Shown: positions 13,193 to 18,316 of the stretch, piece after piece
Layout of the letters: the number at the start of each line of letters is the position of its first letter
How positions within the stretch are numbered: the stretch's first letter is position 1
Assembly (NCBI RefSeq): GCF_002894645.1
Contig: NZ_NCQY01000002.1
Coordinates: 430,038-481,405 of the forward strand
Length of the DNA: 51,368 bases
Source of the DNA: Salinibacter altiplanensis
GTDB lineage: Bacteria; Bacteroidota; Rhodothermia; Rhodothermales; Salinibacteraceae
Direction of reading: 5' to 3'
Notes under the pieces: model-generated
Seen by the model: the letters and a program-made list of their open reading frames with translations, nothing else
What the model was told of the DNA's origin: nothing
The model's database searches: none
Made by a program: the position numbers and the translations under genes

Positions 13193-13642
13193 GATGGCAG
13201 ACGGCTGAGCAGCAGTGAGGACGAGGCTCGGTGGCGAAATTGAAGGCCGCAACCAAAAAGCTCAACGCCGAGGATGGAGGGGGCCGTTCCGAGGTGGGGG
13301 GCTCTCTCCAGAATCTTTGCGTCTCACGCCGAAGAAGCGGAACCCAAGTCCCTGGGATCTCGATCCCTCTGCGCGCGGGCTCGACAGGCATCGGGTTGAG
13401 CACCGGCTGGGTGCAGACAGGAGGACAGTGGGGCGAGATTTGGGACGGCCCTAAGCGGATCGTGGGGCCTCTCGACGGAGGAAGGAGTTCCCTTTTCACC
13501 ATCTCCGACCCTGCAATGAAGTACTGGAGATGAGTCTGCTGTGCCCGTTTGGCCGCCGTGCGACTGTCCTTGACGGTTTCGAGTGGCGAGGGAAGATGAG
13601 CCGCCTCGCTTCTGGGGCCCACGCGGCGTCAGTCCGCGATTC
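13193..13642. other. Intergenic region without a recognisable gene
   Basis: This stretch lies upstream of the ABC operon and downstream of the barrel-protein gene, both on the minus strand, so it should contain the operon promoter. A 100-codon open frame on the plus strand (13231-13533) has no recognisable domain and I do not call it. I see no RNA gene. Confidence 0.45.
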
Positions 13643-15082
13643 TCAAAACCGGATCGTCGCCAACGAGAGGCTCACCGCGTAGCGCGCGCCGCTCCCGAGT
13701 GTGGAGGTCGAGGGCGTGATGCTCGCTCCCAGATCGAACCGGTAAAACCCGAGATCCAGCCCGAAGCCCCCGGAGAGCGCGACGGCCTGTGTGCCGAAGA
13801 AACGAGCACCGGCGCGGAGGGGAAAGGCCCCAAGGTGGAGCGTTCCTCCCACGTGGAGGGCCGCTGGACGTGGCACTGCCCCGGCATTCTCGTTGAGCCC
13901 GATCGACGTGCCCCCATTCAGGGTTACGAAGCCCGCGTCCCAAGTACCGTTCAGGTGCAATGTCGTGGGAAGGCCGGTAGCGAACGACGAGCGGTCGCGA
14001 TTAACGTCCTCGTAGGCGTCATGAGCAAGACTGTCGACCTGATCTTCGATGTATTCTCCCGTTGCTCCGTCGTACTCGTCATCGATCCGATCAGAGTCCA
14101 GCGACACGCCTTCAAACCGAAAGATGTCTTTGGAGGGGGTCACCGTCTGGGCCTCTTGGGTCCAGGTGATCCGCCCCAGGTCCGTGATGCTCGCCGATAC
14201 CAGCAGGCCCGGCCGCACCGTGTAGGTCGCCCCCAGATCGAGGCCGCCACCGATCCCCGCAATCCCGGACGATCCCCCCACGACCTCGTCCACCGGATCG
14301 TCGTTGAAGGCGTTGAACGTGTCGAACAGGCCGGTGCTCAACGGGCCCGCCGCACGGGCTGTGTAGTCGAATCGGTGAACCAGGGAGTCGCCACTCACGG
14401 TCGCCTGCGAGGTGAGTGCGGCGTCCGCGAAGGCCGTTCCGAAAATGACGCGGGGAGAAACGCCCACCGACAGGGGAGCCGACGAGAACCGGTAACTGAA
14501 GGCCCCCGTGACGTCGACGGCAGCGTACGCTCGGCTGCGCCCGTCGACCGGTACGGTTCGGTCTTCGCCCGTCCCCCGGAGCAGTACGTCAAAAATCCCC
14601 TTATTGACGGCGGAGGTCTGGAAGGTACGCCCCCGAATGCCGAAGCCGACTGCCCAGGAGGCGTCGCTGGGCCGGTGGGTGATCGACAGCGGGACGACTT
14701 CCAGGTACGTGCTTGCCGTTTGCTGATCCCGTCCGAACCAGTCATCGAGGATGGCTTTCTGCTCGTCGCTAGAAAGGGCCTTCTCGTTGTCATAGAAAAG
14801 GGGATCAATGTGCTCGAACTGGTAGAAGTCCCCCCCGTGGTAGGCCCCCAGGCGAAACAGTTGAATCTCGAGGGAAGGGGCGTCCGGCCCGACCGTGAGG
14901 TTGGCGGGATTGGAGTAGAGAGCGGCCGGGCCCGTGTCGAAACCAGACGTGCCCCCGCCGGTGCTCACCGCCTTCACGCTGCGCATGCCGGACTGGCCGC
15001 GGGCGGCTCCGGGCGCCAGGGCCAGAAGGCCAGAGAGAACAAGAGCAAGAGCCGAGCGGAGAGCAAAGGCGTGGCGCGTCAT
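13643..15082 (-). CDS. Predicted outer-membrane beta-barrel protein (FadL/PorV-like, DUF5723-type)
   Basis: A 479-residue exported protein. The signal peptide spans about residues 1-30 (LALVLSGLLALAPGAARGQ). The mature part begins SGMRSVKAVSTGGG, then GPAALYSNPANLTV, a segment seen at the start of FadL/PorV-type barrels. Alternating hydrophobic strands and Gly/aromatic-rich turns continue to the C-terminus, which ends in Phe as barrel proteins recognised by the BAM complex do (SLATIRF). The ATG at 15082 was chosen because it starts the signal peptide and has a GGAAAG upstream; the frame itself opens at 15133. It lies 63 bp after the large lipoprotein gene and is probably co-expressed with it. 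The ligand is unknown; DUF5723 membership is my impression, not a search result. Confidence 0.78.
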   Translation of the reverse strand: MTRHAFALRSALALVLSGLLALAPGAARGQSGMRSVKAVSTGGGTSGFDTGPAALYSNPANLTVGPDAPSLEIQLFRLGAYHGGDFYQFEHIDPLFYDNEKALSSDEQKAILDDWFGRDQQTASTYLEVVPLSITHRPSDASWAVGFGIRGRTFQTSAVNKGIFDVLLRGTGEDRTVPVDGRSRAYAAVDVTGAFSYRFSSAPLSVGVSPRVIFGTAFADAALTSQATVSGDSLVHRFDYTARAAGPLSTGLFDTFNAFNDDPVDEVVGGSSGIAGIGGGLDLGATYTVRPGLLVSASITDLGRITWTQEAQTVTPSKDIFRFEGVSLDSDRIDDEYDGATGEYIEDQVDSLAHDAYEDVNRDRSSFATGLPTTLHLNGTWDAGFVTLNGGTSIGLNENAGAVPRPAALHVGGTLHLGAFPLRAGARFFGTQAVALSGGFGLDLGFYRFDLGASITPSTSTLGSGARYAVSLSLATIRF

Positions 15083-15145
15083 CTTTCCAGCCTGATTTGT
15101 CGGGAGAGGGAGGGGCAGTGTAGAGATTGTCAAGGCCTTGAAGGC

Positions 15146-17122
15146 TTAGTTGCCGGTCTGAATGGAGGCGTCGGCCTTGAGGCGGATGCGGTTGAGGGTT
15201 AGTTGGTCGTCGGCCCGGAGGCGGGCGACGGCTGCTGTGCCTCCTCCCGATCCCTTCTGATTCATGTTGAGTACGAGCCGGATCTTGTCGCCGTCGGCCA
15301 GCGCTCGCAGGTCCTTCTGCGTGCTCCCGAGGGGGAAGACAAAGGTGCCCGACGACGAACGCGCCGCCGCTCCGTCTTCGTTCTTCGCGGCCGGTTCAAT
15401 TCGAAAGTCGTTGTTGCCGAAGCCGTCGTTGAACGTCTCAATCGCCGAGCCCGCGGCGTCGACAATGACCATCTTCACATCCGCTCCGAGTGGAAGACCG
15501 TTCGTGTAGCTGAACTGGAGCTCCGCCGTCGAAATATTCACGTCTTCCTCCGGGTTGGTCAGGTCGTTGAGGTCGGACAGGTCTGCATCGATGGTATCCC
15601 GCACGACGAAACGGTCCTTGATGCGGAGAGGGACGTTGAGCGAAAAGTTCGCGTCCAGCGAGATGGGCTTTCGAGCCTTCAGGCCGCCCCTGTCCGTGTT
15701 GATCTCGGCCTGCCCGGCCAGGCGGACCTCCGTCGGAAGTGCGTTGACGAAGTCCGCTACGTTTGAGTTGTCCCCGTCGACCACGAGCGGCGTCCGCACC
15801 GTTTCGTCCAGGGACGCATTCTCAAGCCCAACGCCCAGTTTGATCAGCGAGTCATTTGGAAGAGAAGCGCCGTTGTCCGTAAACCCAGCCGAAGAAAAGG
15901 GCAGCGAGGACACGTTCCGGTCGGCCCCGCGCGATTCGTTCTGATCTTCTGTCCCGCCAAGAAGGACCTGGCCCGATTCCTGTTTTCCTTGAATCGCCGC
16001 GTACAACTGGGCGTCGGTCGACGCGAGATTTACGGTTTCGACCTGGAAGCTCAGGCTTACGTCCGCCAGCTCAAGTCCGTCCACCCGGCCCGTGATGCCC
16101 TCAAACCCATCAAAGGCGGCCGTCTGCACCTCGTTGTCGTTGGCAACATTGATGTCTCCGCCGTTTTCATTCGGCGTGACGGCCACTGTGAACGGCTTCG
16201 CCGCACCGACGTCAATCTCTTGGACCTCAAAATCGGTGAGTGAGGTCGAGCCTCCGAGAGAGATCTTATCGTCGTCTTTTACCTGCAGATCTGGATTCAC
16301 TCGGCCGTCAATCTTGAACGCGATCGTCCCTTTTTCGTCGATCTTCGGCTTGTCCGGGTATACTCGTGCGTCTTTTAGGTCGATGCCAAACCCATCACTC
16401 AGGTCGTTTATGTCCCGTTGATATTCGCCATTGGGACCGCAGCGGCCGTCTCCGCAGGGGGTTTTGACAAATTCGACGACGAATTGGTCGTTCTTCCCGT
16501 ACGGCTTGACTCGGATATCGGGATATGTGAACCGTAGGCTGTCGAAAACACCCTTTGTAGAGTTTGGTGAAACCGCGATGTTCGGCACCCCGATCTTCGT
16601 GTTTCCGAGCTCTACGTAGTTGTCTTGCGACTTTTCGAAGGCGACTCTGTCGCTCCCAGTTACTGAGACGTCAGCCGTCGCAGATCTCTGTAGTTCTACC
16701 TCGAGGTCCCCGATCCGTTGTTTACCCGAAACCGGGACTCCTTCCTCCTTCAGGTCGATGAGCTCTTCTTCAAAGTTCTTCTGGGCAAAGGTGAGGCTGC
16801 CGGTGGCGTTTTCCAGGGCGCCGTCCAGATTCCCGATGTCGAAGTTATCGATGTCCTGTACGACCGAGATGTCGTTATTCGCCGATCCCACCTCGAAGAG
16901 GGAGTCGAAGTCCGACGACGTGGTGTCAATTAATGGGTCGAATTCACTGTCGGGCCCGCCGAGAAACGTGAAGGTTTTTTCCTGCACGAGTGGTGTGCTG
17001 ATCTCCGTCTCGGTGTTGAGGGACGGTGAGGTGTCCCCCGTGGGCACGTCGCACCCCACTAGGATCGTGAGGGAAAGTGCGGCGACCGTGGCGGCCCACC
17101 AGTTGGCGTGCGAAGCGGACAT
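15146..17122 (-). CDS. Large surface lipoprotein of unknown function
   Basis: A 658-residue predicted lipoprotein I do not recognise. The signal peptide ends in a lipobox, LTILVGC, with the modified cysteine at position 24, followed by DVPTGDTS. The mature protein is strongly acidic, Asp/Asn/Ser-rich and beta-rich, with a two-cysteine motif (PCGDGRCGPNGEY) near residue 235 that could form a disulfide. There are no transmembrane segments after the signal. The acidic content suits a surface protein of a halophile. It precedes the barrel gene by 63 bp on the same strand, suggesting a lipoprotein-barrel pair at the outer membrane. The start at 17122 is fixed by the signal peptide; the longer open frame upstream to 17593 is rejected. 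Base composition is somewhat less GC-biased than neighbours. Confidence 0.8.
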   Translation of the reverse strand: MSASHANWWAATVAALSLTILVGCDVPTGDTSPSLNTETEISTPLVQEKTFTFLGGPDSEFDPLIDTTSSDFDSLFEVGSANNDISVVQDIDNFDIGNLDGALENATGSLTFAQKNFEEELIDLKEEGVPVSGKQRIGDLEVELQRSATADVSVTGSDRVAFEKSQDNYVELGNTKIGVPNIAVSPNSTKGVFDSLRFTYPDIRVKPYGKNDQFVVEFVKTPCGDGRCGPNGEYQRDINDLSDGFGIDLKDARVYPDKPKIDEKGTIAFKIDGRVNPDLQVKDDDKISLGGSTSLTDFEVQEIDVGAAKPFTVAVTPNENGGDINVANDNEVQTAAFDGFEGITGRVDGLELADVSLSFQVETVNLASTDAQLYAAIQGKQESGQVLLGGTEDQNESRGADRNVSSLPFSSAGFTDNGASLPNDSLIKLGVGLENASLDETVRTPLVVDGDNSNVADFVNALPTEVRLAGQAEINTDRGGLKARKPISLDANFSLNVPLRIKDRFVVRDTIDADLSDLNDLTNPEEDVNISTAELQFSYTNGLPLGADVKMVIVDAAGSAIETFNDGFGNNDFRIEPAAKNEDGAAARSSSGTFVFPLGSTQKDLRALADGDKIRLVLNMNQKGSGGGTAAVARLRADDQLTLNRIRLKADASIQTGN

Positions 17123-18316
17123 AGCGCAAACCTGTTTTCGAAAAGGGAAAATGAAGTTTGTCTGGGGGGAAGCGCCGGTGTGGAGGGAACGGGCCGCTTT
17201 GCTCCCCGCAGAGCGGAGGATGCGGCCCTCAAGCGTAGTAAATTTTGAAACGCTTGTCTGCGTACATGTCTGGCATTGCGTTGAGGTCAAGAATCGCGCC
17301 AGGACGGACACCCGCCCTCGTTCGACGGTCTGTTTGCTTGAGGTCGACGATATTGAGGCCCGATCCGTAGTTTCTTCGCTCCCCGGTCCGCAATCATGCA
17401 GCTCAGAGTAGGTCAGGCATGAGGCCACATGCGGTATGCACGCCATAGAAGTTTGGGGCGACGTGGTCGCAGTTGAGGGCAGGTTTTTCGTCTCTCCCCG
17501 TCTGGACGACGGGTCCTTCTCGTTCGGGAACGCCTCGGTCGGCTCCAAAAGCCTGTCCGGATGCCCTCGGCAGTGATGACGCGGTCCTCCCACTTGTCCT
17601 CACCAGCGGCCATGTTCAACAGAGGGGGGAAAATGGCCTGGCCCGAGTGGAACGAAAAACCATCCGTGAGAGGAATCTGAGGAGTCGTGCCTAACGGTAC
17701 TCGACACTCGTCCCCGACAGGTTCTGAGACAAAAGGGGCCCCGTGACTCAGAACACCGGTAGGCCTTGGCGCTTCCGACCGTGGCGGAGGCCAACCTCTC
17801 AATTCTGGACATTCCTCAGTGATGTGCAGGTGTTGCTGCCCGGCGACGTGGGGGAGTCCGCTCTGTAGGGCGTGCTTGAAGTCCTTTTCTGGATGGACCA
17901 GACCGCCGGTACGCTTCAGCTCTCCGGTACAGCGGTGAAACTGTAGGGGACGTTTCGGGAGGGGGACGCGCCGTCGACGCGAGGAAATCCGTTTTCCGGT
18001 GACACCACGACAGACGCGAGTTGGGATGGGCCGTTGGTCGTCTCCATCGATCTGGAGGCCAGTCCGGACGTGCGTGGAGATTCCACGGCTTGGCGCTCGA
18101 TATCACCCCCCTGCAGAGTGAATTTGACGGTGAGGGGGGAGAGTGCGTAGAGCACCAGGCCGCCACGGTCGTTGGGGACATTCAAAAATGTGTGGGCGGC
18201 TGCCGGTTCAATTGTGGGCACAGGGGGGCTATGCACGCCGACGCAGGTCAGGGGGGCATCGCGCTCGACGCCTGTCGCTCACGACAGTCTAGTTTGCCCG
18301 TTTGGGGACCGTTGGG
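17123..18316. other. 1.2-kb region lacking a clear gene
   Basis: No ORF here has a recognisable domain, and codon usage looks random in all frames. The only open frame of any note is a 106-codon one on the minus strand (17916-18236) with no start context or family match; it could be a decayed gene. An 8-bp perfect inverted repeat occurs at 17721-17754. The right part must hold the 3' end of the pyr transcript, and the left part the promoter of the lipoprotein gene. Confidence 0.5.
17721..17754. repeat. 8-bp inverted repeat with an 18-nt spacer
   Basis: GTTCTGAG (17721-17728) and CTCAGAAC (17747-17754) are perfect inverses around a spacer that itself contains the palindrome GGGGCCCC. There is no U-tract, so a protein-binding site or remnant hairpin is as likely as a terminator. 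Confidence 0.5.

Follow-up and report, generated by a model that had tools for sequence, protein, structure and literature searches.

Lipoprotein and barrel genes at the locus

This study analyzed a pair of neighboring envelope genes in a 51,368-nucleotide stretch of the Salinibacter altiplanensis genome (contig NZ_NCQY01000002.1, positions 430,038 to 481,405; the window denotes this whole stretch). The upstream gene, P0001, encodes a predicted lipoprotein, and the gene for a predicted outer-membrane barrel, P0002, follows it on the same minus strand. A sequence-only reading had described a 658-residue lipoprotein lying 63 bp before a FadL/PorV-like barrel, and both genes were found where that reading had placed them (Table 1). 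The pair is a real, phylum-wide two-gene unit, and the lipoprotein belongs to a Bacteroidota-wide family related to DUF4621.

Table 1. Features of the lipoprotein–barrel locus, in window positions (ORF, open reading frame)
Feature	Position	Strand	Basis or remark
Lipoprotein gene P0001, 658 aa	15146..17122	-	ORF, sequence; short form among order-level relatives
Signal peptide with lipobox ILVGC; lipidation predicted at Cys24	17051..17122	-	Sequence; Cys invariant in 12/12 aligned
CGDGRC two-cysteine motif, residues 223-228 (C223, C228)	16439..16456	-	Clade-specific
63-bp spacer between lipoprotein and barrel genes	15083..15145	-	Sequence
Barrel gene P0002, 479 aa, DUF5723 (PF18990)	13643..15082	-	Profile match, FadL fold
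Barrel signal peptide ...AARG|Q30; predicted mature start at the invariant Gln30	14996..15082	-	Site read by eye
Asn58-Pro59-Ala60 of the N-terminal hatch (compare FadL N33-P34-A35)	14903..14911	-	Invariant in 12/12 aligned
Non-coding stretch upstream of the lipoprotein gene, possible leader or promoter	17285..17579	-	Similarity to 3 same-genus relatives
Block between pyrB and the ABC ATPase gene	13253..18316	.	Contains the pair

Conservation and adjacency of the pair

The lipoprotein and the barrel were each detected in 20 genomes of an order-level sample of 60 relatives, own genome included. Both genes were present in 19 of the 21 genomes with either and were adjacent in all 19; in each of the two single-gene genomes the gene lay at a contig end, the lipoprotein frame of G048 running off its contig and the barrel of G041 lying on a contig of 3,505 bp that ends 318 bp past it. 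The co-location on which the sequence-only reading had staked the pairing was therefore borne out, the genes being together rather than separate in the relatives. A scan of named genomes with the barrel alignment, which included Roseithermus sacchariphilus, Balneolales, Marivirga, Prevotellaceae, and Bacteroidales, was evaluated for the best 80 of 94 loci, counted as barrel relatives by this alignment rather than by an individual DUF5723 check. Nine of the 80 were set aside with the upstream gene missing or cut by the contig (L077, L086, L093, L103, L117, L125, L126, L128, and L129). A lipoprotein was encoded directly upstream in 66 of the 71 testable loci, with a gap of at most 60 bp, measured by first possible start, in 63 of the 66 and a 4-bp overlap in 10; another gene stood upstream in the remaining five (L069, L075, L082, L114, and L121).

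In a phylum-level sample of 148 genomes, 98 yielded a barrel match, 57 a lipoprotein match, and 56 both. The lipoprotein matches merged to 60 places, some of them weak, and 51 of the 60 had a PF18990 match within 1.2 kb downstream on the same strand. One merged place (the second in G122) was a false match, the G074 lipoprotein adjoins a barrel missed by PF18990 (E 2.1e-41 with our own profile), and the gene order is reversed in G186. Lipoprotein places paired with a DUF5723-type barrel numbered 53 of 59, two of the 53 depending on weak hits to the lipoprotein (E 2.6e-5 and 1.4e-4).

Five of the six lipoproteins outside this pairing precede a phosphoglycerate-kinase-like gene. At L195, L197, and L198 (genomes G063, G139, and G176), the lone lipoprotein gene stands before phosphoglycerate-kinase-like and rhomboid-like genes and a PorV-looking barrel; these labels are the families to which we take the genes to belong. 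The PorV-looking gene is the third downstream in all three genomes, and the barrel profile matched that of G139 only (E 1.2e-8).

Gain, loss, and inversion within the genus

The order of the two flanking genes, which by their sequences we take to be pyrB and an ABC-transporter ATPase gene, is retained in G005 and G011 with the pair absent and approximately 194 and 183 bp, respectively, between the matched ends. In G006, the pair occupies this site in reversed orientation and its lipoprotein is long; the pair faces pyrB in that reversed orientation in G007 and G009 as well, where the stretch compared gave no ABC ATPase match. The pair and pyrB point in the same direction in G000 (the genome studied), G003, G004, and G010; G001 and G012 also have no pair, and no pyrB match was found in them. 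We read this as a dispensable unit whose gain, loss, or inversion involves both genes together. Identity to the long-form genus members G006, G007, and G009 was 82-88% for pyrB, 52-59% for the barrel, and 28-36% for the matched part of the lipoprotein, indicating that the lipoprotein evolves fastest.

Sequence features and family of the lipoprotein

P0001 yielded no significant match in Pfam or NCBIfam, and DUF4621 (PF15414) in particular gave none up to E 1. A BOF match was set aside as weak (E 0.11, under the cut-off), and LEA_2 (E 0.001) and YdbH (E 0.034), each found in one of 55 relatives, were too weak to be taken as proof of lipid binding. Profile-profile comparison nevertheless joined P0001 and 10 Rhodothermota/Balneolales-type relatives to the 55 upstream lipoproteins from elsewhere (probability 99.75, E 3.3e-27, 392 columns). 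The profile of these 55 matched Protein Data Bank (PDB) entry 4h3w_A (E 1.2e-21), as did a joint profile of the order-level and 55 lipoproteins (E 7.7e-8), and three of the 55 matched DUF4621, the family of 4h3w. P0001 is tied to DUF4621 because the wider-family profile and the model fold described below both match 4h3w, and the view that the lipoprotein has no known family could not be maintained. In one of 394 genomes searched, a DUF4621 gene itself (L139:3072-5642 in G380:C84) lies 30 bp before a DUF5723 barrel (E 1e-117).

The window lipoprotein is a short form. Frames of 921-1,032 aa occur in 13 of the 20 order-level relatives; lengths were 913-1,089 aa in eight of the ten loci L050-L059 and 249-735 aa among the complete upstream lipoproteins of L060-L127. 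The central stretch of the long forms, which is missing from the window lipoprotein, comprises two mutually similar modules (hhalign probability 72.7 over 102 columns, on slices cut by eye, as for the module comparisons that follow). Similarity to the C-terminal domain was seen for the second module (93.7 over 103 columns) and not for the first (1.7).

The mature protein is acidic, as the sequence-only reading had noted (pI 4.24, D+E 16.9%); such acidity would be expected of a salt-adapted organism. The two-cysteine motif noted in that reading is present, at C223 and C228, and it occurs in four of five short-form sequences, G010 being the exception. None of seven long forms checked has a cysteine past the lipobox Cys, so the motif does not characterize the family, and a functional motif for the whole family was ruled out. 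In the order-level alignment A1 (this and A2 each hold 12 of the 20 sequences), residues 41-80, after the Cys, form the best-conserved 40-residue block, as expected if this block docks on the barrel; in the wider alignments A5 and A9, C-terminal blocks lead instead. The upstream lipoproteins diverge strongly, with a mean column identity of 17% in alignment A6, which holds 55 of 56 lipoproteins (L105, the same as L104 over the part compared, was omitted). Positions +1 to +6 after the Cys of P0001 read DVPTGD, with two acidic residues, a possible sign of surface location. Across the relatives, at least one acidic residue lies in this interval in 65 of 66 and two or more in 39 of 66, counts in which the lipobox was assigned by eye in six (L050, L053, L061, L081, L107, and L127) and the Cys of L112 was misplaced by the script.

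Family and N-terminus of the barrel

P0002 matched DUF5723 (PF18990) with an E value of 1.2e-26 and 94.7 bits, against a curated cut-off of 26.8. PF03349 (FadL/TodX/TbuX) gave no match to P0002 up to E 1 and, searched against the same genome, found three places, none of them the P0002 locus; the PorV profile NF033709 found five, two over its cut-off, and again none was this locus. Neither profile finds P0002, and membership of the barrel in PF03349 or PorV was accordingly ruled out. Elsewhere in the genome (G000:C4; L140:5192-8251), a classical FadL/Toluene_X barrel gene is followed directly by a gene for a GDSL-lipase lipoprotein.

In its predicted model, P0002 has the N-terminal hatch with the NPA motif of FadL/Toluene_X, and the hatch region showed a weak sequence match to TodX (E 0.018). 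Gln30 is invariant in two barrel alignments, and 28 residues separate this mature Gln from NPA. The corresponding distance was 17-22 residues in 31 and 27-28 in 12 of 43 measurable DUF5723 rows, a further seven of the 50 rows giving no value; two of the 12 order-level rows gave 14 and 19. It is 33 in FadL (from the mutant names N33A and P34A) and 44-46 in the BamG relatives considered below (counted visually, starting at the first AxA-Q site).

Predicted structures

The AlphaFold2 models of the lipoprotein (50 sequences, pLDDT 78.5, pTM 0.71) and the barrel (50 sequences, pLDDT 80.7, pTM 0.78) drew on 49 of 66 lipoproteins and 49 of 80 barrels, respectively. Both models are strand-rich, in agreement with the sequence-only reading. 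The lipoprotein model matched 4h3w with Z 16.1 (root-mean-square deviation [rmsd] 3.7, 296 residues aligned), the next-best match having Z 7.6, and Foldseek also ranked 4h3w first (E 2.1e-10). Matches below Z 8 (PNGase F, virus capsids, and BcsB) were not used, such Z values being common. BamH was not in the lists of structural matches of the lipoprotein, which excludes nothing.

The FadL/PorV-like fold assigned to the barrel was supported by its model, which matched TbuX, CymD, TodX, and FadL (VIA Z 19-23), the type 9 translocon chain 6h3i_F (Z 20.5), which we take to be PorV, and the BamG chains of three BAM structures (Z 17.7-18.4). Within the barrel, two strands modeled with high confidence (24 and 27 residues) are longer than a membrane span.

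Relation to BamG and BamH

Passages of two 2025 reports (PMC12611786, PMC12578637) describe BamG-BamH of the Bacteroidota β-barrel assembly machinery (BAM), in which the FadL homologue BamG carries a tail that exceeds the usual length by 10-12 residues and is threaded through the lateral opening, and the surface lipoprotein BamH docks on BamG. In Flavobacterium johnsoniae, the bamG and bamH locus numbers given there are far apart; a passage of another paper (PMC12045153) suspects a functional link between an F. johnsoniae FadL homologue and a neighboring lipoprotein gene.

The genome studied encodes a BamG relative elsewhere (phmmer E 8.4e-27 to 9hiv_F, 7.7e-22 to 9hjm_F, and 3.4e-12 to 9n2d_B). 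At this site (G000:C21:7521-10280; L142:2522-5281), the lipoprotein gene directly before the BamG relative encodes a presumptive BamH, so named by position only, which gave no hits in the PDB. The BamG relative was found in 58 and the presumptive BamH in 51 of the 60 relatives; by eye, from coordinates, the two are also neighbors in G003, G028, and G037.

The DUF5723 profile had no PDB hits up to E 1, hence no BamG chain. Compared with the BamG relatives, it gave a profile-profile probability of 90.7 over 31 columns in one test and 3.8 in the other, and the 31-column match may represent a shared barrel motif. The P0001 family and the presumptive BamH, assigned by position, gave hhalign probabilities of 17.6, 4.4, and 5.6 against three alignments. 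P0002, with 28 residues before NPA versus 44-46, has no BamG-type long N-terminal tail. The families, the short tail, and the separate BamG relative rule out that the pair is BamG-BamH itself.

Proposed function and alternative explanations

We propose that the pair forms an accessory complex of a barrel and a surface lipoprotein that probably handles a hydrophobic substrate, a reading to which we assign roughly an even chance. The lipoprotein would be exported, lipidated, and probably moved to the cell surface, where its N-terminal part would dock on the outward-extended barrel strands, as BamH does on BamG. It may be modular, with a 4h3w-like beta core and a variable number of inserted beta modules setting its reach. 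The barrel would have an N-terminal hatch and no long tail blocking a lateral opening, and the pair would capture and move a hydrophobic or amphipathic compound. Because the tail is short, the lateral opening, if present, would be unblocked, which favors hydrophobic transport over a sealed scaffold of the BamG kind.

Several observations weigh against this proposal. The transport role, whether uptake or secretion, is suggested by fold and tail length, and PorV and BamG share the fold and are not known as small-molecule channels. Six of the 59 lipoprotein places have no DUF5723 neighbor, and 42 of the 98 barrel genomes gave no lipoprotein match, part of which may be misses because the upstream lipoproteins diverge strongly. 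The order-level lipoprotein profile by itself did not find 4h3w in the PDB, and the Foldseek TM values were modest, both for the lipoprotein against 4h3w (0.28/0.53, rmsd 10) and for the barrel against TodX (0.42). Nine of the ten loci L050-L059 have a single acidic residue at +1 to +6, so that a surface signal suggested by the wider family is weak near home.

An assembly or scaffold unit is a somewhat unlikely alternative. The barrel would then be a docking post, comparable to BamG for BamH or to PorV in type 9 secretion, and the lipoprotein would serve particular outer-membrane clients as an accessory chaperone or canopy at the surface, with no small-molecule transport. The gene order and barrel fold are those of the genome's own presumptive BamH-BamG and of the published complex, in both pairs conservation is stronger for the barrel than for the lipoprotein, and in three genomes a PorV-looking fragment, identified by eye and backed by the profile in one, lies third downstream of a lone lipoprotein. 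These parallels have to be set against the absence of a BamG-type tail, of a DUF5723 match to any BamG chain in the PDB, and of a profile link to the presumptive BamH, and against the occurrence of the pair in 20 of 60 relatives versus 58 of 60 for the BamG relative. A related reading, in which the pair represents a further accessory class of barrel–lipoprotein machine in the Bacteroidota-type envelope, a client-specific module for outer-membrane assembly or folding parallel to BamG-BamH with the modular lipoprotein as a length-adjustable canopy, appears distinctly unlikely.

Still less probable is that the barrel exports its partner lipoprotein to the surface, where the latter acts alone: the position of the barrel directly behind the lipoprotein in the 66 of 71 testable loci would suit such export, but six family members have no neighboring DUF5723 barrel, and we know of no FadL-fold barrel that flips lipoproteins. 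Equally improbable is adjacency without interaction, in which shared regulation alone keeps two envelope genes together. The contact between lipoprotein and barrel is itself deduced, which leaves room for this explanation and counts against our proposal; nevertheless, the association spans the phylum despite strong divergence of both proteins, and the two genes are jointly absent and jointly inverted at one site.

Flanking sequences

The description of the pair as a self-contained unit with non-coding flanks held: the ABC-transporter ATPase gene lies 390 bp from the pair and pyrB 1,194 bp, with no assigned gene in either flank and nothing but mechanical ORFs upstream. The upstream non-coding stretch shows 69-73% identity over 135-300 bp to three same-genus relatives, and within it the block GGCGCGATTCTTGACC is retained in four of five aligned sequences. 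An Rfam search of the window gave no match, a promoter scan found none, and predicted terminators numbered 4 versus 5.1 in shuffled sequence. A 27-nt direct repeat of 78% identity (window positions 13533-13559 and 18286-18312) lies near both ends of the block and could mark a deletion junction or be due to chance; other repeats around the block are weak.

Comparison with known systems

Within the open-access literature searched, DUF5723/PF18990 appeared in no paper, DUF4621 in one plant paper, and 4H3W in one cryocrystallography paper; the pair is apparently undescribed in that literature. It provides a lead to the function of DUF5723 and DUF4621, both families of unknown function, and of the orphan crystal structure 4h3w (BDI_1231, Parabacteroides distasonis). 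The lipoprotein shares the fold of its core with 4h3w; it is approximately twice as long, contains an additional central region, and matches no Pfam family directly. The barrel shares its fold and the NPA-bearing N-terminal hatch with FadL/TodX/TbuX but has a shorter N-terminal tail and, in most loci, directly follows a lipoprotein gene. The type 9 secretion protein PorV has the same barrel fold, although its profile finds other genes of this genome.

The closest comparison is BamG-BamH, which showed that in Bacteroidota the fold of fatty-acid channels has come to serve as a platform on which surface lipoproteins sit. Both systems combine a FadL-fold barrel with a lipoprotein, encoded directly upstream in the genome studied in each case. 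The pair described here differs in belonging to other sequence families, in having no BamG N-terminal tail, and in being accessory rather than core. By analogy, it may work like the BamG-BamH kind of complex without being a member of it, which suggests the same barrel-lipoprotein combination in a second, also phylum-wide, set of sequence families.

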